Assembly: GCA_020831625.1 (NCBI GenBank)
Contig: JAFIGD010000010.1
Coordinates: 1-64,000, forward strand
DNA length: 64,000 nt
Source: Verrucomicrobiota bacterium
GTDB lineage: Bacteria; Verrucomicrobiota; Kiritimatiellia; SS1-B-03-39; UBA6053
Direction: 5' to 3'
The position numbers and the translations under genes are program-made. Shown one piece after another: positions 8,172 through 22,627 of this stretch; position 1 is the first letter of the stretch, and each line of letters opens with the position of its first letter. Under the pieces are notes generated by a model. It saw only the letters and a program-made list of their open reading frames with translations, was not told the DNA's origin and did no database searches.

Positions 8172-8945
8172 ATGAAATCACTATCCCCCGCCGCCCGTCA
8201 TCAGCGCATCCTGCATTGGCTTCAGGAGGAGGAGGAGCTGCGGGTGCGGGATCTTACCGAACGGCTGGGGGTCACCTCCATGACGGTCTGGCGGGATGTG
8301 AAGCTGTTGGAGGAGCAGGGTCTGCTGCGCAGGGACCACGGGGGCATCCGCCGTCCGGCGGCGGCGCTGCGGGAATTGGATTTCGAGAGCAAGGACCAAA
8401 CCGGGCTGGCGGCGAAGCGGAAAATTGCGGAACTGGCCCTGGGGGCCTTTGTGCGGGAGGGCGATGTGATCGCGATGGAGGGAGGCACCACGGTGGCGGC
8501 ACTGGCGGAGCTGCTGCCCAAACAACGGGTGTCGGTCATCACCAACAGCCTGCCCATTGGGCTGCGGCTGCGTCAGTCGCATCCGGAGATTCCCGTGCGC
8601 ATGATCGGCGGCTGGGTGAGTCCGGTGTCGGGCAACTGCACGGGGCCGGACGCGCTGCGGGAGATCCGGCGTCATCCGGCCACGGTCTGCTTCCTCAGCG
8701 CCACCGGCTGGGACGCGGCCAGGGGGCCCACCGATCCGAATCCGCTGGAGATCGAAGTCAAACGCGCCCTCGCGGCCATGGCCGACCGGGTGGTGCTGCT
8801 GATGGACAGCCGCAAGTTCTCCGTGGAGGCGGCCTCGCTGATGATCCATCCCCGGCGTCTGCACGCACTGGTGAGCGAGCGGGAGGTGCCGGAGGCGGTG
8901 GGGAGGATGCTGGGGGAATACGGGGTGGAGGTGGTTGCGGGGTGA
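8172..8945 (+). CDS. DeoR/GlpR-family transcriptional regulator
   Basis: The 257-residue protein has an N-terminal winged helix-turn-helix (RHQRILHWLQ at 9-18, VTSMTVWRDVKLLEEQGLLR at about 34-53, then DHGGIRRP) and a C-terminal sugar-phosphate sensor domain with the GDVIAMEGGTTVAALAEL segment and FLSATGWD. DeoR proteins usually repress sugar kinase and isomerase genes and are released by a phosphosugar. The divergent kinase 74 bases away is the likely target. The stop is followed immediately by a long hairpin repeat that also serves the convergent pseudopilin gene. Confidence 0.88.
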   Translation: MKSLSPAARHQRILHWLQEEEELRVRDLTERLGVTSMTVWRDVKLLEEQGLLRRDHGGIRRPAAALRELDFESKDQTGLAAKRKIAELALGAFVREGDVIAMEGGTTVAALAELLPKQRVSVITNSLPIGLRLRQSHPEIPVRMIGGWVSPVSGNCTGPDALREIRRHPATVCFLSATGWDAARGPTDPNPLEIEVKRALAAMADRVVLLMDSRKFSVEAASLMIHPRRLHALVSEREVPEAVGRMLGEYGVEVVAG

Positions 8946-8951
8946 GGGGGG

Positions 8952-9108
8952 GAGAAGAGATCAGACAAATCAGGACAAATCGGGACAAATCGGGACGGGG
9001 GAGATCGGGACGACTCAGGACAAATTGGGACATCTCGGGACGGGAAGAGGACTCTTTGCGGAGGCGGTCGGAGTTGTCCTGAGGTGTCGGAGCTGTCCTG
9101 ATCTCTTG
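8952..9108. repeat. 11-bp-unit hairpin repeat, copy 4 (convergent gene ends)
   Basis: The 5' arm starts AAGAGATCAGACAAATC with GGACAAATCG units, and the 3' arm ends GTCCTGATCTCTT, its complement. The centre ACTCTTTGCGGAGGCGGTCG closely matches that of copy 2, followed in both by TTGTCCTGAGGTGTC. It fills almost all the space between two converging genes, again suggesting a two-way terminator. Confidence 0.88.
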
Positions 9109-11340: not shown

Positions 11341-11354
11341 GTAAACACGTTTAG
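11341..11354. promoter_or_regulatory. LacI-family operator candidate (fucosidase/lacI divergent region)
   Basis: GTAAACACGTTTAG is a near-perfect palindrome with the central ACG/CGT typical of LacI-family operators. An almost identical palindrome (GTAAACGTGTTTAC) lies at 12444 just after the lacI gene, so both probably bind the product of 11397-12440. Confidence 0.7.
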
Positions 11355-11396
11355 AGTTTATTGACATCCCGGCGGAACTTTGGCAAGAGATTGTCC

Positions 11397-12440
11397 ATGA
11401 GTGAATCCTCCCCGTCCAAGCGTTCCCGAGTGACCATCCGTGACATTGCCAAAGAGGCGGGCGTGAGCGCCGCGTCGGTGAGCCATGCCTTCCGCGGGAA
11501 TCATCATGTGTCGGCGGAGACGCGGCGGCACATTCTGGAGGTGGCGGAAAAGATGGGATACAGTCCGCATCCGATGGTGTCGGCGCTGATGGCGGAGATC
11601 CGCAGGAACAAATCGGTACAGGAGGAGACGGTGCTGGCCATGGTCGACTTTTTCACAGGCGCCGCCCGGCTGCGGAAAACCAGCCGGAATTTGATTTACG
11701 AGGGGGCGGCGAAGCGGGCGAAAGCGTTGGGATACCGGCTGGATTTGTTTGAACCGATTGAAGAGGGCTGGAGTCTGGACCGCTTTGCGAAAATCCTGCG
11801 GGCGAGGGGAATCAACGGGATCATTGTGCCGCCGCTGCCGGGACAGCCGGATTTGCCGGAGGGTTTTCCCTGGGAGGATTTCAGCGTGGTGACGGCGGGG
11901 TTTGTCTGCCGGTCTCATCCGTTCAACAGCGTGCGGCCGGATCAGCTTGGGGGGATGGAGCTGGCGCTGAGCGAGGTGTCGAAGCGGGGGTATCACCGGG
12001 TGGGGCTGTATATTTCGGCGGAGCTGGACCGGCGGGTGCGCCATGCCTGGAGCGGACTGTACTACTGGCACTGCTCGAATCTGGAGCATTCCCCGCCCGG
12101 GGAGTTGCTGCATTTTTATGACCAGCCCTCGCATGAGGAATTCGCCGAATGGCTGGAGTCGACCCGGCCCGAGGTGGTGATTTCGGATTTCGGCGTGGCC
12201 TGGGACCTGATTCAGGAGTACAGCAAGGGCCGGAAAACCGACTATGTGCTGCTCATCTGTAATCAGGACAATCCACCGTTTTGCGGCATAAATCAAAATT
12301 ACGCAATTGAGGGGGCCTCGGCGGTGGAGCTGCTGTCGACACAGTTGTACCGGAACGAGCGGGGCGCGCCGGCCCTGCGGATGAACGTTCAGATTTCACC
12401 GACCTGGGTCGAGGGCGACAGCCTCTCGCGGAAACGCTGA
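11397..12440 (+). CDS. LacI-family transcriptional regulator
   Basis: The 347-residue protein opens with a LacI helix-turn-helix and hinge: VTIRDIAKEAGVSAASVSHA at residues 12-31, then HVSAETRRHILEVAEKMGY. A periplasmic-binding-protein-like sensor domain follows to the end. ATG 11397 is preferred over an in-frame TTG at 11361. Matching palindromes flank the gene, at 11341 upstream and 12444 downstream, which predicts autoregulation plus control of the divergent fucosidase and of the pseudopilin/GH67-like operon that follows. The ligand is unknown, presumably a sugar released from fucosylated or uronate-bearing glycans. Confidence 0.88.
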   Translation: MSESSPSKRSRVTIRDIAKEAGVSAASVSHAFRGNHHVSAETRRHILEVAEKMGYSPHPMVSALMAEIRRNKSVQEETVLAMVDFFTGAARLRKTSRNLIYEGAAKRAKALGYRLDLFEPIEEGWSLDRFAKILRARGINGIIVPPLPGQPDLPEGFPWEDFSVVTAGFVCRSHPFNSVRPDQLGGMELALSEVSKRGYHRVGLYISAELDRRVRHAWSGLYYWHCSNLEHSPPGELLHFYDQPSHEEFAEWLESTRPEVVISDFGVAWDLIQEYSKGRKTDYVLLICNQDNPPFCGINQNYAIEGASAVELLSTQLYRNERGAPALRMNVQISPTWVEGDSLSRKR

Positions 12441-12443
12441 AAA

Positions 12444-12457
12444 GTAAACGTGTTTAC
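12444..12457. promoter_or_regulatory. LacI-family operator candidate (pseudopilin operon)
   Basis: GTAAACGTGTTTAC is a perfect 14-bp inverted repeat, 48 bases before the next start codon and 3 bases after the lacI stop. It differs from the 11341 site at only a few positions. Confidence 0.75.
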
Positions 12458-12504: not shown

Positions 12505-13170
12505 ATGAAAACACATTCCAACTCCAAGTCATCCGGTTTTACACTGATTGAAATGCTGGTGGTGATTGCGATCATCATCCTGCTGGCCTCCCTGATTACG
12601 GGGGGTGTCAACCGCGCGGTGGGCCGTGCGCGCACCACACAGGTCGCGAACAATCTCCGGCAAATTGGACTGGGGATGCAGATGTACCTGATGGATCACA
12701 ATCAGATGTATCCGGTGATGTTCGGACAAAGTATCGCGTACGGTAAAGACTTAAACGGCCGTGCGCGGCATTGGCAGGAGCAGATGAATTCCTATGTCGG
12801 CGGGCCGGAGGAAGGTGAAAACAATTCCATTTTTAATCATTCCCGGAATCCGATCTGGTATTCGCCGCACGCGGAGCGCATGGGTACCCAGCATTTTGGA
12901 TTAAACCGCTTCATGGCCTTTCCTGAATGGGAATATCGTCATCTTCGAATTCCTGAGCCGGCCAAAATCGTGATTGTGGGAGAGATGAATGCCAACGCCA
13001 GTGATTTTCGGCCCGATGTCGAGCCCGTCTTCAACGGGAATACCGCAACCCGTTACCGCATCTCCAATCCCGGGGATGTCGCGCTGTATCTGTTTGCGGA
13101 CGGACGGGTGGAGCCCCGCAAGGGGAATCAGGGAATGTCCGTGAATCCGTCCTGGTACCGCTGGTGGTAA
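12505..13170 (+). CDS. Type II secretion-like pseudopilin
   Basis: The 221-residue product has a short leader MKTHSNSKSSGFTLIEMLVV with cleavage expected after Gly11, a hydrophobic helix (VVIAIIILLASLITGG) and a globular region ending DVALYLFADGRVEPRKGN, again the FxDGRV motif. It resembles the protein at 9110 in plan but not closely in sequence. A LacI-type operator sits 48 bases upstream and the GH67-like gene follows without an intergenic gap, so it is probably co-expressed with carbohydrate enzymes. Confidence 0.85.
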   Translation: MKTHSNSKSSGFTLIEMLVVIAIIILLASLITGGVNRAVGRARTTQVANNLRQIGLGMQMYLMDHNQMYPVMFGQSIAYGKDLNGRARHWQEQMNSYVGGPEEGENNSIFNHSRNPIWYSPHAERMGTQHFGLNRFMAFPEWEYRHLRIPEPAKIVIVGEMNANASDFRPDVEPVFNGNTATRYRISNPGDVALYLFADGRVEPRKGNQGMSVNPSWYRWW

Positions 13171-13190: not shown

Positions 13191-14882
13191 ATGGACTTTC
13201 GGATTGATATGATTCATCATAATCCGGGTGAGCCGGCGTTTGACAGCGCGTTTTCGGATCCCGGCTATTTGAAGGCCTGCGGGTATACGGGGCAGGCCTT
13301 TAAACATATCAACACTGTGCTTACGTTCGAAGCGGTCGCGCCGGGGGTGTTCCCGGGCACGGTGGAGGAGGCCCGGTGGCTGGAGGACTCCCGCGCCCGC
13401 ATCCGCGGCGAAATCGCCGACGCGAAAGCGGCGGGTCTGTCGGTGTTTTATCATATTGATCTGTTTGTGCTGCCCAGACGGATTCTGGAGCGGTTCGGGG
13501 ACCGCCTGCGGGATCCGGACACGGGCCGCGTTTCGGTGGATCAGCCCTTCACGCTGGAGCTGCACCGGGCGATGTTTGAGGAACTGTTCCGGGACTTTCC
13601 GGAGGTGGACGGTTTGATTATCCGGGTGGGGGAGACCTATTTGTTTGATACCCCGTATCACGCCGGCAACGGGGCGGTTCATTATTCCACCGACAACCCC
13701 GAAGAGAACAAAGTCCGGCAGTTTGTCAGATTGTTGAATTTTCTTCGGGAAGCGGTGTGCGAAAAACACGGAAAGATTCTGATTCACCGCACCTGGGACA
13801 CCTGGCCAAACCGGTTTCACGCGAACCTTGATTTTTATTTGCGGGTGACGGATGCGGTTCCGCCGCATCCGAAGCTGATTTTTTCCGTGAAGCACACGCA
13901 GGTGGATTTCCACCGCTGGGTGGAATTCAATCCCTGTCTGATGCGGGGAAACCATCCGCAGGTGGTGGAGGTGCAGTGTCAGCGGGAGTATGAAGGCAAA
14001 GGCGCCTATCCGAATTACATCGCCCGCGGGGTGATTGAAGGGTTTCCCGAACAGCGGGAGCCGAAAGGATTGCGGGATATTCAGGACGATCCGTTGTTCG
14101 CGGGGATGTATACCTGGTCGCGGGGCGGGGGATGGTACGGTCCGGCGGTGGACCGGCACAACGAACTCTGGTGCGACCTGAATGCGCGGGTGCTCATGCA
14201 GTGGGCCCGGGATCCGGCGCGGAGCGAGGAGGCGGTGTTCATGGAGGTGGCGAAAGAGGGGTATGGCATCAGCACGCGGGATGCGGAAGTGTTCCGGCGG
14301 ATTGCCCTCGGTTCCTGCAAGGCGGTGTTGAAAGGAAAATGCTGCGAAGTATACGACCGGCGCGAAAAGGAGCATCCCGGGTATCCGACCAACCAGTGGA
14401 TGCGGGACGATGTGCTGCAGGGGTTTGAACGGTTGGGACCGGTCTTCGATTATCTGTTGGAGGCGGGAGGCGTGGAGGAGGCTCTGCGCGAGAAGGCGGA
14501 AAGTGCTTCCCGCTGGCGGGCCATGCGCGAGGATTGTCAAGGCTTCAGCCCCGGGTTGGATGCGAACCTGCGGCAGGTGATTCTGACTTCGGTGGAGCAT
14601 GGACTGCGTTTCTTTACCGCCATTGAAGCCGCCTGGCGGGCCTTGCTGCCGGGATGGTGTCTGAAGCAGGGGGGCGGCGCGGACCGCGGGGCGATGGAAC
14701 GCGCGCTTTGCGATTTTGACCGGGCCTGGGCGCGGTATGAGGCTTTGCCGGAGGAATATCCCCGTTGCGCTAGTTTGTACCGGCTTCACGGCTGGGCCTG
14801 GCCGGATCAGACGCCTCCGCCGGGTCTGTCCGGCGCGCTGGACGAAATTCGCTCCCTTTTGCGGGAGCCCGCCGCGGTTTGA
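13191..14882 (+). CDS. GH67-like protein of unfamiliar family (intact copy)
   Basis: This 563-residue protein is not a recognisable member of a family I can name, but its motif order matches the true GH67 at 18556. RVGETY with Glu148 corresponds to the acid Glu in VKADSEG; ILIHRTW at 196-202 to LFWRTFV; KHTQVDF with Asp239 to IKCSAIDF; and VVEVQCQREYEG with Glu260 to CVEFALTKEYSG. I infer a TIM-barrel glycosidase acting on a uronate or related sugar. Other marks are MIHHNPGEP at 7-15 and YTWSRGGGW. ATG 13191 is preferred to a GTG at 13164 overlapping the pilin gene. No signal peptide is seen. The broken paralogue lies at 1286. Confidence 0.6.
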   Translation: MDFRIDMIHHNPGEPAFDSAFSDPGYLKACGYTGQAFKHINTVLTFEAVAPGVFPGTVEEARWLEDSRARIRGEIADAKAAGLSVFYHIDLFVLPRRILERFGDRLRDPDTGRVSVDQPFTLELHRAMFEELFRDFPEVDGLIIRVGETYLFDTPYHAGNGAVHYSTDNPEENKVRQFVRLLNFLREAVCEKHGKILIHRTWDTWPNRFHANLDFYLRVTDAVPPHPKLIFSVKHTQVDFHRWVEFNPCLMRGNHPQVVEVQCQREYEGKGAYPNYIARGVIEGFPEQREPKGLRDIQDDPLFAGMYTWSRGGGWYGPAVDRHNELWCDLNARVLMQWARDPARSEEAVFMEVAKEGYGISTRDAEVFRRIALGSCKAVLKGKCCEVYDRREKEHPGYPTNQWMRDDVLQGFERLGPVFDYLLEAGGVEEALREKAESASRWRAMREDCQGFSPGLDANLRQVILTSVEHGLRFFTAIEAAWRALLPGWCLKQGGGADRGAMERALCDFDRAWARYEALPEEYPRCASLYRLHGWAWPDQTPPPGLSGALDEIRSLLREPAAV

Positions 14883-14933: not shown

Positions 14934-14998
14934 GATTAAGATTAAGATTAAGATTAAGATTAAGAGTAAGAGTAAGAGTAAGAGTAAGAGAAAGAGAA
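14934..14998. repeat. GATTAA/GAGTAA hexamer array
   Basis: Five or so units of AGATTA are followed by about five of AGAGTA and then AGAAAG units, all 6 bp long. An array of the same unit in reverse orientation (CTTAAT) lies at 50719. It occupies the gap between the GH67-like gene and the next gene of the presumed operon. Confidence 0.88.
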
Positions 14999-15044
14999 AG
15001 ATTTTGAGTATGAAGAGAAACCACAACCTTGAGAGATTCCACAT

Positions 15045-16403
15045 ATGACCACCATGCTTCCGTTTGCCGGTGAACCGGTGTGTCCCCGCGACTTGAACCC
15101 GATTTTTCCCGTGCCTCCGGACCCGCAGACCCGCGAGGCAATTCAGGCGGACGTCCGTCTGGACGAGTGCCGGGCCATGGCCATCCAGTGCCTGAAAGGC
15201 GGGTTGAATGCGGGCAGTCATTTTCACGAAGTCTGGATCCGCGATTTGAACACCTTTCTGGTGCCGGCGCTGGAGGCGGTGCCGCCGGCGCAGGTCCGCG
15301 AAGCCCTGCTGGAGTTTCTGCATTTCCAGGGCGCGGACGGCAATATCCCCGACGGGGTGGTGGCGGAGAAAAAGCACGACCCCTATTACAAACGCTTCAT
15401 GCGCGTGGAGTCGCTTCCCGGCCGGATGGCCATGAAAAACGACGTCAGCGCCGACCAGGAAAGCTCCTTTGTTCAGGCAGTGGCCCGCTATGTGCGCACC
15501 ACCGGGGACCGGAGCATTCTCGATGAACAGGTCAACGGCCGGAGCTGTCTGGACCGGGCGGTGGACGCGATGGCGTTCCTGTGGCGGGACCGGTGGTCGG
15601 AGAAACACGGCCTGATCTGCAACGCGGCCACGATTGACTGGCATGACGTGCAGCCCGAGGATTCCCACGGACTGGAAATGGATGAGAACAGTCACCGCGC
15701 GGTCGGGGTGTACTCCAACGCGCTGGCGATGCTGGCGCTGGAGGATCTGTTCAGTCTGGACGCGCTGGATGCGGAGACCGCCGCGCTGTGGCGGCAGCGG
15801 CAAAAGGATCTCGGCACCGCCATCCGGGAGGTGCTGTGGGATGAAAACCGCGGCAAATTTGTGCCCCACCGCTATTTGGAGGAGGGCTCGCCGTTCCCGC
15901 CGGAACTGGATGAGGACGCGATTTTCTTTCCGCTCGGCACCGCGCTGGCGGTTCGGGCCGGCGTGTTGAACGCGGAAGAGACCGCGCATTCCTGGGCGGC
16001 CACGCTGGAGGCGGTGCGCCGCGCCGGGGCGGCTTCGATCGGCTTCAGTCCCTGGCCGCCGTATCCGGCCGGGTGTTACGCCGCCAAGGGAATTCAGCCC
16101 TGGGGATATGCCAACGGGGGTGACTGGACCTGGTGGGGAGCGCAGACCGCCGCCGCCTACGCGGATGCCGGTTATGTGGCCGGGGCGTACGCGGCGCTGC
16201 TGCCCATGGTGGAGCGGGTGCTGCGCGACCGGGAATTTTTCGAGTGGTACGACCGCGACAATGTGCCCGCCGGGAAAGTCAAAGATCCCTCACCGGAGCT
16301 GATCGGACAGGGCTGGGGTGCGCTGGCCAAAGGCGCGGCCCAGTTCCGGGGCGCGGCGGGAACCCTGGTGATCGCCATCGATCTGCTGCGGCGGATGTCC
16401 TGA
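15045..16403 (+). CDS. (alpha/alpha)6-barrel glycosidase-like protein
   Basis: The 452-residue product has features of six-hairpin glycosidases of the amylo-alpha-1,6-glucosidase/GH63 type: HEVWIRDLNTF near residue 60, QGADGNIPDGVV near 100, DVSADQESSFVQAV near 135, and the late GYANGGDWTWWGAQTAA segment near 350. Asp and Glu residues in these segments could serve as catalytic acids, but I cannot place the protein in a numbered family. No signal peptide is present. It lies 162 bases after the GH67-like gene, on the same strand, with only the hexamer repeat between. Confidence 0.6.
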   Translation: MTTMLPFAGEPVCPRDLNPIFPVPPDPQTREAIQADVRLDECRAMAIQCLKGGLNAGSHFHEVWIRDLNTFLVPALEAVPPAQVREALLEFLHFQGADGNIPDGVVAEKKHDPYYKRFMRVESLPGRMAMKNDVSADQESSFVQAVARYVRTTGDRSILDEQVNGRSCLDRAVDAMAFLWRDRWSEKHGLICNAATIDWHDVQPEDSHGLEMDENSHRAVGVYSNALAMLALEDLFSLDALDAETAALWRQRQKDLGTAIREVLWDENRGKFVPHRYLEEGSPFPPELDEDAIFFPLGTALAVRAGVLNAEETAHSWAATLEAVRRAGAASIGFSPWPPYPAGCYAAKGIQPWGYANGGDWTWWGAQTAAAYADAGYVAGAYAALLPMVERVLRDREFFEWYDRDNVPAGKVKDPSPELIGQGWGALAKGAAQFRGAAGTLVIAIDLLRRMS

Positions 16404-18447: not shown

Positions 18448-18464
18448 CACTTCTCTGTGTGGGG

Positions 18465-18499
18465 AAGCCCCCTGCCGGGTGACCGGAGGGGGCTTTTTT
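18465..18499 (+). terminator. Rho-independent terminator after the PEP-CTERM gene
   Basis: AAGCCCCCT pairs with AGGGGGCTT around a GC-rich loop and is followed by six T residues. Confidence 0.9.
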
Positions 18500-18502
18500 G
18501 TG

Positions 18503-18550
18503 GGAAGAGATCGGACAACTCAGACAACTCAAACAAAGCGGACAACCCGG
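18503..18550. repeat. 11-bp-unit repeat, diverged copy 5
   Basis: Begins GGAAGAGATCGGACAACTC like the other copies, followed by CAGACAACTC and GGACAACCC units. No inverted arm is present. It lies directly 5' of the GH67 gene. Confidence 0.6.
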
Positions 18551-18555
18551 ACGGC

Positions 18556-20601
18556 ATGATGACGCAAGAAACCAGTTTGTTGGCGTTTCCCCCGGACGAA
18601 TCCGGGGGGGAAGCGTGGCTGCGGTATCCACGGCTTTGCGCGGCGGATGCAAGCGCATTGCAGGCGCTTTGCACGGTGAACGCCTGCCCGGGCGCGGAGG
18701 CGGCGCTTTCGGAACTGGACCGGGCGCTGGCGGGCTGGGGATTGCCGCCCCGCACGGACGGCGACGGACTGAGTTTGTCCCTCGATCCCGCCTTGCCCGA
18801 AGAGGGGTTTTGTATTTCGCGTCCCTCGCCGCAACAGGTGCGTTTGGCGGGCGGCTCGCCGCGCGGTCTGCTCTACGGCATGTTTCATCTGTTGCGCTGC
18901 GTGAACTGCGGGCTGCCGCTGGAAGGGGCCTCCGCGCCGGCGGTGCCTCTGCGGATGATCAATCACTGGGACAATCTGGTGTGCGACCCCGTTCACGGCA
19001 GCATCGAACGGGTCAAGGGCGGCGACACGATCTTCGACTGGACCGATCTCGCGCGTCCCAATCCACGCTATGAGGAGTATGCCCGTCTGCTGGCCTCGGT
19101 CGGCCTGAACGCCACCTGCCTCAACAACGTCAATGCCGAACCGGAAATCCTTTCCACCGACATGATCCGGGGACTGGCCGCGCTGGCCTCCGTCTTCCGT
19201 CCCTGGGGCCTCCGCATCTTCATCAGTGTGAACTTCGCCACGCCGGTGCTGCTGGGGGAACTGGACACCGCCGATCCGCTGGATGCGCGGGTGCAGGACT
19301 GGTGGCGGAACAAAGCGGATGAAATCTATGCCGCGATTCCCGACTTCGGCGGCTTTGTGGTCAAAGCCGACAGTGAGGGCAAACCGGGTCCGGGCACCTA
19401 CGGACGCAATCATGTCGAGGGCAGCGCCTGTCTTGCCCGCGCGCTGGCGCCCCACGGCGGCACCCTTTTCTGGCGGACCTTCGTGTACGGCCGCAATCTT
19501 GCCGACAAGCTGCCCGATCCCAAGGCCCGCGCCGACCGCGCCAACCACGCCACCCACGAGTTTATGGGGCTCGATGGCCAGTTCGAGGAGAACGTCATTT
19601 TGCAGATCAAATGCTCGGCCATTGATTTTCAGATTTGGGAGCCGGTGCACGCGCTCTTCGGCAAGCTGTCGAACACCCGCATGTGCGTGGAGTTCGCGCT
19701 GACCAAGGAGTACAGTGGTCTGGATGTGCATATGAACTGGGAGGGCCCGTATGTCTCGGAGATTCTGCGGTCCCCGCTGGTCGCGGGGCGCATGGATGCG
19801 GTGACCGCGGTGGCGAACCTCAACAATTCCCGCAACGGCTTCGGGCATCTGCTGCACGGCGCGAGCCTGTACACCCACGGACGTCTCGCCTGGCGGCCGG
19901 ATGCGGATCCGCGCGCGGTGCTGGACGAATACACTGTGCAGATGTTCGGTCCGGAGGCCGGTCCGGCGGTGTCGGAGATGATGGCCGACAGCTACGACAC
20001 GGTGGCCTCCTACACCATGCCGATGGGGATGACGTACATCAGTGAGTTTCTGCATCATTTCGAGCCCGACCCCTGGGCGAACCACGACGGGGCGGGCATC
20101 ACCGCCGATGGCATCGGCGTGGACCGCACCGCCGCCACCGGCAGCGGGTACATTGGACTCTATCCGCCTGAGCTGGCGGGGCGTTTCGAGGATCCCGCCA
20201 CCTGTCCGCTTCGCTGTCTGCTTTATTTTCATCATCTCCCCTGGACTCACAGTCTGCCCGGAGGCGAAACCCTCATTCAGTCTCTCTACGACAGCTACTG
20301 CGGCGGCGTGGAGACGGTTCGCGGATACCGGCGTCAATGGCGGGCTTTGCACGGCCAGATCGATCTCGAACGCTGGGCGCATGTGTGCGAGAAGCTGGCT
20401 CTGAAGGAGCGTCACGCGGAGCGCTGGCGGGATTTGGTGTGTCGATTTCTGGAGGAGATTTCGGGGATTAAGGATGCGCAGGGGCGTTTCGATGCGCCAT
20501 CGGTGCATAATCGAGTGCGTAGTGGATACCGGCAGGCATTTGAGGATTACCGGGCGCGGGTGGAGCGGGAGCGCGGGGTGATGCGGAGGAAACCGATTTG
20601 A
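18556..20601 (+). CDS. aguA: GH67 alpha-glucuronidase
   Basis: The 681-residue length fits GH67, which removes (4-O-methyl)glucuronic acid from the non-reducing end of xylooligosaccharides. The catalytic region is clear: DFGGFVVKADSEGKPGPGTY gives acid Glu274, IKCSAIDFQIWEP gives Asp357 and RMCVEFALTKEYSG gives Glu379. An N-terminal domain precedes the barrel and a helical C-terminal domain follows. ATG 18556 is chosen because the frame further upstream runs through the terminator and repeat. No signal peptide is seen, so it probably acts on imported aldouronates, supplying glucuronate for the uxu-type genes at the window start. Confidence 0.9.
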   Translation: MMTQETSLLAFPPDESGGEAWLRYPRLCAADASALQALCTVNACPGAEAALSELDRALAGWGLPPRTDGDGLSLSLDPALPEEGFCISRPSPQQVRLAGGSPRGLLYGMFHLLRCVNCGLPLEGASAPAVPLRMINHWDNLVCDPVHGSIERVKGGDTIFDWTDLARPNPRYEEYARLLASVGLNATCLNNVNAEPEILSTDMIRGLAALASVFRPWGLRIFISVNFATPVLLGELDTADPLDARVQDWWRNKADEIYAAIPDFGGFVVKADSEGKPGPGTYGRNHVEGSACLARALAPHGGTLFWRTFVYGRNLADKLPDPKARADRANHATHEFMGLDGQFEENVILQIKCSAIDFQIWEPVHALFGKLSNTRMCVEFALTKEYSGLDVHMNWEGPYVSEILRSPLVAGRMDAVTAVANLNNSRNGFGHLLHGASLYTHGRLAWRPDADPRAVLDEYTVQMFGPEAGPAVSEMMADSYDTVASYTMPMGMTYISEFLHHFEPDPWANHDGAGITADGIGVDRTAATGSGYIGLYPPELAGRFEDPATCPLRCLLYFHHLPWTHSLPGGETLIQSLYDSYCGGVETVRGYRRQWRALHGQIDLERWAHVCEKLALKERHAERWRDLVCRFLEEISGIKDAQGRFDAPSVHNRVRSGYRQAFEDYRARVERERGVMRRKPI

Positions 20602-20797: not shown

Positions 20798-22627
20798 ATG
20801 AAAACGTCCTCCAGCAAGTCCCATACGCATATTGACGAGGAATCCCGGGTGCCGGAGTATGATTTGCCGTCCCTTTTGCCGGAGGGCGGACAGGCGGATT
20901 GGCCCGCCCGCCGCCGGACGTTGATGGATTTTTTTTCCGATCATGCCTACGGCCGCACGCCCGATGCCGCGCCGGAGGGCGGGGTGCGGGTGGTGGACAC
21001 AGTGCGCGGTGCGGCCCCGCAGGTTGAAGGCGCGGTAAGGATTCAGTTCACTCTGGAGATCGGGCCGGTGTCGAACCGTCATGCGGTCCGGGTGTTGCTG
21101 TATCTTCCCGCTGAGAAGCCGCGGTGCTGTTTTCTGGGGGTGAATTTCGCGGGGAATCACACGATTGATGCCGATCCGGAGATCGAACTCCCTCGGGGGT
21201 GGATGTATCCTTGGGAGGGCACAGGGGTTGTGGCGCACCGCGCGACGGCGTCGGGGCGGGGGACGCGTTCGCGCCGCTGGCCGGTGGCACGGATTTTGGA
21301 AAAAGGGTTCGCGCTGGGGACCTTTTATTGCGGCGATCTCGCGCCGGATCAGGCGGGGCATCCGAAAATTGCCGACTTCAAGCGTTTGTTTCCGGCGCCG
21401 CCGGACCCCGGGAGTGAATGGGGCAACATCGGCATCTGGGCCTGGGGACTCTGCCGGGTGCGGGAGGTTTTGGCGGCGCTGCCGGAACTGGAGGGTGTTC
21501 CCTGCGTGGCGGTCGGTCATTCCCGCATGGGCAAAACGGCCCTCTGGGCGGCGGCGCAGGATGAGGCGTTTGCCGGGGCGCTGAGCAACTGCAGCGGCTG
21601 CATGGGGGCGGCGCTGAGCCGTCGGTGTTTCGGGGAGACAGTGGAGAAAATCACCCAAGGATTCCCGCATTGGTTTTGTCCGCGTTTGCGGGCGTGGGCC
21701 GGCCGCGAGGCGGAGATGCCGATGGATCAGCATATGCTGCTGGCGCTGATTGCGCCCCGTCCGCTGTTGGTGTGCAGTGCGGTGGAGGATTTGTGGGCCG
21801 ATCCGCGCGGGGAATTTCTCGCCACCCGGGCCGCTTCCCCAGCCTATGCGATGCATGGTCATGCTTCGTTTGCAGATTCGGAGTTCCCTGAACCGGGTCA
21901 GGCGGTGATCCGGGACCTAATCGCCTATTATCTCCGCTCTGGAAAACACGATATGCCCCTGCCGGTTTGGGAACAGGGTCTGACGTTCTTCACAAACGAT
22001 GTTCGTTATATCCGCTACTTTCATCCGGAAAAACCCAAGGAAATTCATGAGAACCGTTTGCCCCACTGGCAGATGGAAGGGGCCATGTATTTTGTGACCT
22101 GGCATTTGGGGGATTCCCTGCCGGTGGCGGTGTTGAAAAAATGGCGTTTGGAACGGGAGGATTGGCAGATGACCCATCCGCGCCCATGGACTCCGGAAAC
22201 GGAAGCGGAATTTCACCGAAATTTTTCCCGGCGGTATGAGGAGGCGCTGGATAAAGGATGCGGCTCCTGTTTGCTGCGCAACCCGATTTACTCGGAGATT
22301 ATGGCGGAATGTTTCCGGCATTTCGATCAGGCCAGGTATCATTTGGATTGTTTTGTAATTATGCCGAATCATGTGCATGTGCTGTTTACGCTGGCGGGGT
22401 CCTGGAAACTGCAGGACATTCTTCAACAGTGGAAAAGTGTGAGTTCGCACAAAATCCAGAAGCAGCGAAACACCTCCGGCAAACTCTGGCAAAAAGATTC
22501 CTGGGACCGCATGATCCGGAATCCCCTGCATTATAAACGCTGCCGAAATTATATTCGTGAGAATCCATCGAAAGCCCGGCTGACAGAGGGGCATTTCGTT
22601 TTATATGACAGCAAGGGGGCGTTTTGA
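20798..22627 (+). CDS. CE15-like glucuronoyl esterase fused in frame to a RAYT transposase
   Basis: Residues 1 to about 403 form an alpha/beta hydrolase of the glucuronoyl esterase (CE15) type: VAVGHSRMGKTALWAA puts nucleophile Ser242 in the GxSRxGK motif, MDQHMLLALIAPRPLLV lies near 309-325, and HGHASFAD near 353-360 gives the likely His. The usual family end, YYLRSGKHD...WEQGLTFF, is present at 377-398. The frame then continues without a stop into a complete REP-associated tyrosine transposase (RLPHWQMEGAMYFVTW at 420-435, PNHVHVLF with His525 and His527, and YIRENPSKA with Tyr585). No signal peptide is visible. Glucuronoyl esterases cut lignin-xylan ester links, fitting the nearby GH67. 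Whether the fusion is translated as one protein is unknown. Confidence 0.75.
   Translation: MKTSSSKSHTHIDEESRVPEYDLPSLLPEGGQADWPARRRTLMDFFSDHAYGRTPDAAPEGGVRVVDTVRGAAPQVEGAVRIQFTLEIGPVSNRHAVRVLLYLPAEKPRCCFLGVNFAGNHTIDADPEIELPRGWMYPWEGTGVVAHRATASGRGTRSRRWPVARILEKGFALGTFYCGDLAPDQAGHPKIADFKRLFPAPPDPGSEWGNIGIWAWGLCRVREVLAALPELEGVPCVAVGHSRMGKTALWAAAQDEAFAGALSNCSGCMGAALSRRCFGETVEKITQGFPHWFCPRLRAWAGREAEMPMDQHMLLALIAPRPLLVCSAVEDLWADPRGEFLATRAASPAYAMHGHASFADSEFPEPGQAVIRDLIAYYLRSGKHDMPLPVWEQGLTFFTNDVRYIRYFHPEKPKEIHENRLPHWQMEGAMYFVTWHLGDSLPVAVLKKWRLEREDWQMTHPRPWTPETEAEFHRNFSRRYEEALDKGCGSCLLRNPIYSEIMAECFRHFDQARYHLDCFVIMPNHVHVLFTLAGSWKLQDILQQWKSVSSHKIQKQRNTSGKLWQKDSWDRMIRNPLHYKRCRNYIRENPSKARLTEGHFVLYDSKGAF

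Follow-up and report, generated by a model that had tools for sequence, protein, structure and literature searches.

What does the 563-residue product of the open reading frame at positions 13191–14882 do, and how close does it stand to the GH67 alpha-glucuronidases, a true member of which is encoded in the same stretch of DNA? The question arises within a 64,000-nucleotide contig segment from a Verrucomicrobiota bacterium (the window), all of whose genes discussed here lie on the forward strand. The reading frame, an alignment of relatives, a structural model and the pattern of codon selection together assign this target protein to a GH67-related family, termed family A below.

The target protein and family A

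Translation of the reading frame places the starts of the motifs VGETY, HRTW, KHTQVDF and VVEVQCQREYEG at residues 146, 199, 234 and 258, in agreement with the motifs and the numbering of Glu148, Asp239 and Glu260 given in an earlier sequence-only reading of this DNA. The residues with which that reading had compared them in the window's GH67 protein, Glu274, Asp357 and Glu379, are correct when counted from the ATG start; they are Glu307, Asp390 and Glu412 (33 higher) in the numbering used here, which counts from the GTG at 18457. The Asp–Glu spacing that it gave, 21 residues in the target versus 22 in the window GH67, holds on both translations. An obvious signal peptide is absent from the target, as judged by eye from its N terminus.

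A relative of equal length (locus L033) is 72% identical to the target across all 563 residues. The nucleotide differences between the two genes number 111, 107 and 258 at the first, second and third codon positions, respectively, and since they are mostly third-position changes the frame is under protein-level selection. The long antisense open reading frame over the target is taken to be the shadow of a GC-rich reading frame.

Searches of the target against Pfam (even at an E-value of 10) and NCBIfam produced zero matches, and a direct search against PDB sequences produced nothing convincing. Open-literature searches, with subscription papers outside their scope, did not find a paper describing the family. 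It is accordingly called unnamed here in the sense of being absent from Pfam (2025 copy), NCBIfam (June 2026) and the searched open literature, and may already carry a CAZy number. Some relative is present in 57 of 388 genomes of the phylum and is near full-length in about 18, counting the window's own; the other near full-length relatives show 31–53% identity. When peptides of the target were searched in 84,980 species genomes, three close relatives turned up, in records labelled Verrucomicrobiota or PVC-group; such a scan detects close relatives only and says nothing on absence elsewhere.

Residues Arg145, Glu148, Arg200, Lys234, Asp239 and Glu260 are all invariant among 20 aligned members of family A, and because Glu148, Asp239 and Glu260 are among them the E/D/E motif of the target is not a chance feature. 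Longer, partly hydrophobic N termini can be seen by eye in the alignment for five members (L010, L011, L012, L013 and L017). One of these, L010 (544–3216), has 891 residues and an extra C-terminal GH16 domain.

Relationship to GH67 in sequence and predicted fold

Comparison of a profile of 20 family A members with one of fourteen true GH67 proteins using hhalign gave a probability of 97% (E 8e-11). Eleven families from the gene neighbourhoods, most of them other sugar-active enzymes, served as decoys (GH29, GH95, GH78, GH106, GH13, GH36-like proteins, UxuA, sulfatases, SASA esterases, beta-helix proteins and one family without a name); these, and GH67 profiles that had been shuffled or reversed, reached at most 1.6% against family A in the same program. 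A profile of nine GH115 proteins gave a probability of 0.2%, and GH115 was rejected at this level; GH67 was the only named family to match in the profile–profile search.

The hhalign alignment pairs target residues with residues of the window GH67 at five of the invariant positions. Arg145, at the position of Lys303, begins the codons 13623–13634 that run to the predicted catalytic acid Glu148 after barrel strand 4; Glu148 itself is one gap away from Glu307. Arg200 of HRTW (13788–13790) pairs with Arg340, and the stretch Lys234 to Asp239 (KHTQVD; 13890–13907) is aligned with Lys385 to Asp390, Asp239 being the predicted base. Glu260 (13968–13970), its predicted partner, pairs with Glu412. Glu285 and Glu386 of the Geobacillus GH67, both named as mutated residues in PDB titles, fall together with Asp364 on the same E/D/E motifs in an alignment. 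In Cellvibrio GlcA67A the glucuronate is contacted by a lysine four residues before the acid glutamate, an arginine 33 after it and a lysine five before the aspartate.

Weak (sub-threshold or marginal) matches to the Pfam GH67M model occur in seven of the 20 family A members, and two relatives scanned singly narrowly pass its cut-off of 23.5 bits (L011, 25.9; L014, 25.2). The target does not reach this middle-domain cut-off, and a GH67C match above the cut-off was not obtained.

An AlphaFold2 model computed on the 20-member alignment has a mean pLDDT of 90.7 and a pTM of 0.90. Strands at residues 3–7, 34–38, 84–89, 141–145, 196–200, 229–234, 257–261 and 303–308, which are accompanied by two short ones, are read as the eight strands of a TIM barrel, with Glu148 just after strand 4, Asp239 after strand 6 and Glu260 in strand 7 of the model. 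Ranked by Z, the first nine fold matches (Z 19.3–20.4, rmsd 3.7–4.3) are without exception GH67 structures. The top one, at Z 20.4, has 414 residues aligned with an rmsd of 3.8 and spans GH67 residues 142–679, the identity in the structural alignment being about 13%, and the leading Foldseek match is also GH67 (E 5e-12). Residue 1 of the model, two residues ahead of its first strand, pairs with residue 142 of 1k9d, and the GH67 N-terminal domain is thus absent from the target. GH138 follows at Z 18.1 (rmsd 4.6 over 481 residues; Foldseek E 6e-11) and then GH84 at about 16, while GH115 matches with Z about 15 over 390–430 residues, below GH67. A viral fold library gave weak matches only.

These results support a shared ancestry of family A with GH67, as a distant relative with the same predicted barrel and catalytic layout. 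The distant GH67-related family proposed in the sequence-only reading is borne out by the profile score relative to the decoys, the weak GH67M matches, the fold search and the aligned K/R-E-R-K-D-E positions; that reading had named a fold other than a TIM barrel, or acids lying far apart, as grounds against it, and the model predicts a TIM barrel whose acids occupy strands 4, 6 and 7, their location in GH67 too.

The closest alternative is that the target simply belongs to GH67 as a divergent, N-terminally shortened member with the same aldouronic xylo-oligosaccharide substrates as the true GH67 encoded 4 kb downstream. The coincidence of the catalytic positions and the GH67M scores, including those of L011 and L014, are what this reading would predict; however, the target has no Pfam match and no GH67N domain, no GH67C match above the cut-off, and the genome already contains two true GH67 genes, so that plain membership is judged unlikely. 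Lacking both the Pfam match and the N-terminal domain, the target falls outside GH67 proper as far as these tests go, but it most likely works in the same way.

Gene neighbourhoods

The target is preceded by a LacI-family regulator gene (11361–12440; Pfam LacI, E 1.1e-13) and a gene for a pseudopilin-like protein with an N-methylation motif (DUF1559-like; 12505–13170), in keeping with the sequence-only reading, which had put the target behind a LacI operator and a pseudopilin. A perfect 14-bp palindrome, GTAAACGTGTTTAC, is found between these two genes (12444–12457, forward strand). An operator-like palindrome with one mismatch lies just upstream of lacI (11341–11354, reverse strand). Sites with at most one mismatch number only three in the 4.9-Mb genome, and 0.08 sites would be expected in the window at up to two mismatches; the palindrome at 12444 is a probable LacI operator on this evidence. 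The third copy (one mismatch; G000:C91:32025–32038, locus L081) is found some 60 bases ahead of a gene whose secreted product, of 2102 residues, has a heparinase-like sequence on reading. This copy was set aside as an operator because chance alone would supply about one such site.

Downstream of the target lies a gene for a probable (alpha/alpha)6 glycosidase (15045–16403), assigned from weak GH94/MGH1/trehalase profile matches and a weak alkaline invertase match. The order in the window is thus lacI, palindrome, pseudopilin, target and glycosidase, and the order of the last three genes recurs in L033. Tandem short repeats of the ATTAAG, AGTAAG and GAAAGA types occupy 14935–15010, between the target and the glycosidase gene. 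Intergenic units of GGGACAAATC/AGGACAAATC, apparently a dispersed repeat of the genome, recur at 2725–2800 and at about 8945–9080.

Two further genes follow 4–8 kb downstream of the target. The first encodes the true GH67 alpha-glucuronidase (18457–20601 from the GTG start, with the ATG at 18556; Pfam GH67M, E 2e-106, and GH67C, E 3e-60). The second (20798–22627) encodes a glucuronoyl-esterase-like domain (residues ~170–354) and, further along the same frame, an IS200-like/REP-associated transposase domain (~500–597). This REP-associated tyrosine transposase domain sits at the 3′ end of the gene as if inserted in frame.

The mannonate dehydratase UxuA is an enzyme of glucuronate breakdown. A UxuA gene (3–500), cut by the contig end and the only one found in this genome, opens the window and is followed by an SDR oxidoreductase gene, a putative mannonate/fructuronate reductase (512–1282). 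Directly after these comes a second family A copy (1286–2711), 46% identical and broken: its N terminus is short by about 75 residues, and a frame shift follows HHNPGEAPY. Intact relatives are similarly arranged elsewhere, those at L034 and L058 standing directly after genes for RraA-like, SDR and UxuA proteins. UxuA and SDR genes therefore adjoin family A in three loci (L034, L058 and the window copy), out of 25 family A genes examined. The pair in the window stands beside the broken copy rather than the target. The genomes G000 (the window's own) and G023 have one UxuA locus each in the whole genome. By a rough estimate about one random gene in a thousand would adjoin a sole UxuA locus, which makes the presence of family A at the sole UxuA locus in two genomes unlikely by chance. 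In Geobacillus, GH67 and uxuAB share one locus, and the GH67 works intracellularly, cleaving aldotetraouronic acid after its import (PMC4194401). The neighbouring genes point towards ordinary glucuronate as the sugar that the target would release.

Around family A in 24 stretches, sulfatases were found in six, GH29 in five, GH95 in four and GH78 in four, and GH106 was also seen. The substrate may therefore vary, with many members sitting among sulfatases, fucosidases and rhamnosidases, and family A may act on several glycan types to remove a uronic acid, a possibility raised by these varied neighbours together with the GH16 domain of L010.

The majority of the remaining relatives fall into a sister group, group B, whose proteins have about 575 residues (for example L003 at 1081–2814, which is G000:C65, and L024–L032). 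Alignment of ten members shows that Arg160, Glu163, Arg206, Lys242, Asp247 and Glu268 correspond to the six positions of family A and are all kept. The group B profile matches family A at 100% probability (E 2e-39) and GH67 at 90%, and its best fold match is also GH67. Its gene in the window's genome adjoins a ribosomal protein S1-like gene, and in seven of 21 loci a gene combining a PHP domain and a glycosyltransferase occurs in the same stretch; recurrent sugar-degradation neighbours were not found around group B in these 21 loci. The S1-like and PHP-domain/glycosyltransferase neighbours suggest that group B is perhaps a housekeeping glycan enzyme.

Proposed activity and comparison with known systems

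The reading that we favour, and consider likely, is that the target is a probably cytoplasmic, inverting exo-alpha-uronidase of an unnamed family related to GH67, probably an alpha-glucuronidase, and is probably repressed by LacI. The GH67 fold, the six active-site positions and the glucuronate-gene neighbours make family A probably a new kind of sugar-clipping enzyme. We infer the activity, stereochemistry, sugar, location and inducer of the target as follows. Glu148 would protonate the oxygen of the glycosidic leaving group while Asp239 and Glu260 activate a water molecule for attack, with the uronate bound by Arg145, Arg200 and Lys234. The sugar released would most likely be D-glucuronate or its 4-O-methyl ether, and D-glucuronate would enter the fructuronate–mannonate (UxuB/UxuA) pathway to KDG. 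A cytoplasmic location is probable, and the upstream LacI protein probably represses the gene until an inducer arrives, which could be an imported oligosaccharide or its product.

Two other substrates have to be weighed against this. A GH138-like alpha-galacturonidase acting on a pectin-type or other galacturonide would fit the rank of GH138 BP0997 as the next fold match after GH67; but GH67 stands above it in that ranking, the recognisable neighbours are UxuA (of the glucuronate branch), the true GH67 and the glucuronoyl-esterase-like gene, and pectin enzymes were not recognised near the target, all of which leaves such an activity improbable. Least credible of all is a TIM-barrel glycosidase whose substrate is of another kind altogether, such as a hexosaminide (as in GH84/GH20), and that keeps the acids for other reasons: GH84 and GH20-type chains do match the fold at Z about 15–16, but mostly with an rmsd of 8–9 Å, where GH67 gives 3.8, and at the profile level it is with GH67 that the residue pattern lines up.

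If the alpha-uronidase assignment is true, a separate GH67-related family would widen the set of enzymes that remove glucuronic acid from plant or algal glycans, and would illustrate how a conserved GH67 active site can persist in a changed domain architecture. The prediction specifies residues and one product and is thus testable. More tentatively, and with rather less confidence than for the target alone, family A (with or without group B) could constitute a new GH family within a GH67 superfamily, in which a secreted branch would free glucuronic acid not from xylan but from sulfated glycans that contain fucose or rhamnose, and group B would have a housekeeping function in metabolizing the cell's own glycans.

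The main alpha-glucuronidase families in the surveyed literature are GH67 and GH115. GH115 enzymes are reported to be inverting and to have active-site residues that differ from those of GH67 (PMC3879575). The GH115 alpha-glucuronidases have a related core fold (Z about 15) and show no profile similarity to family A at the 0.2% given above. GH138, represented by the rhamnogalacturonan II enzyme BP0997, is the second-best fold match with 10–11% identity, a likeness compared by fold alone. The closest known system is GH67 itself (1k9d and 1mqq from Geobacillus; 1gqi and 1h41 from Cellvibrio), which like family A combines a barrel with a helical C-terminal domain and has E, D and E at strands 4, 6 and 7, the K/R, R and K positions, an EVQxxxEYxG motif and an association with uxuA. 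Family A differs from it in the low identity (~13%), in the missing N-terminal domain and in a motif of its own, HHNPGE, after strand 1.
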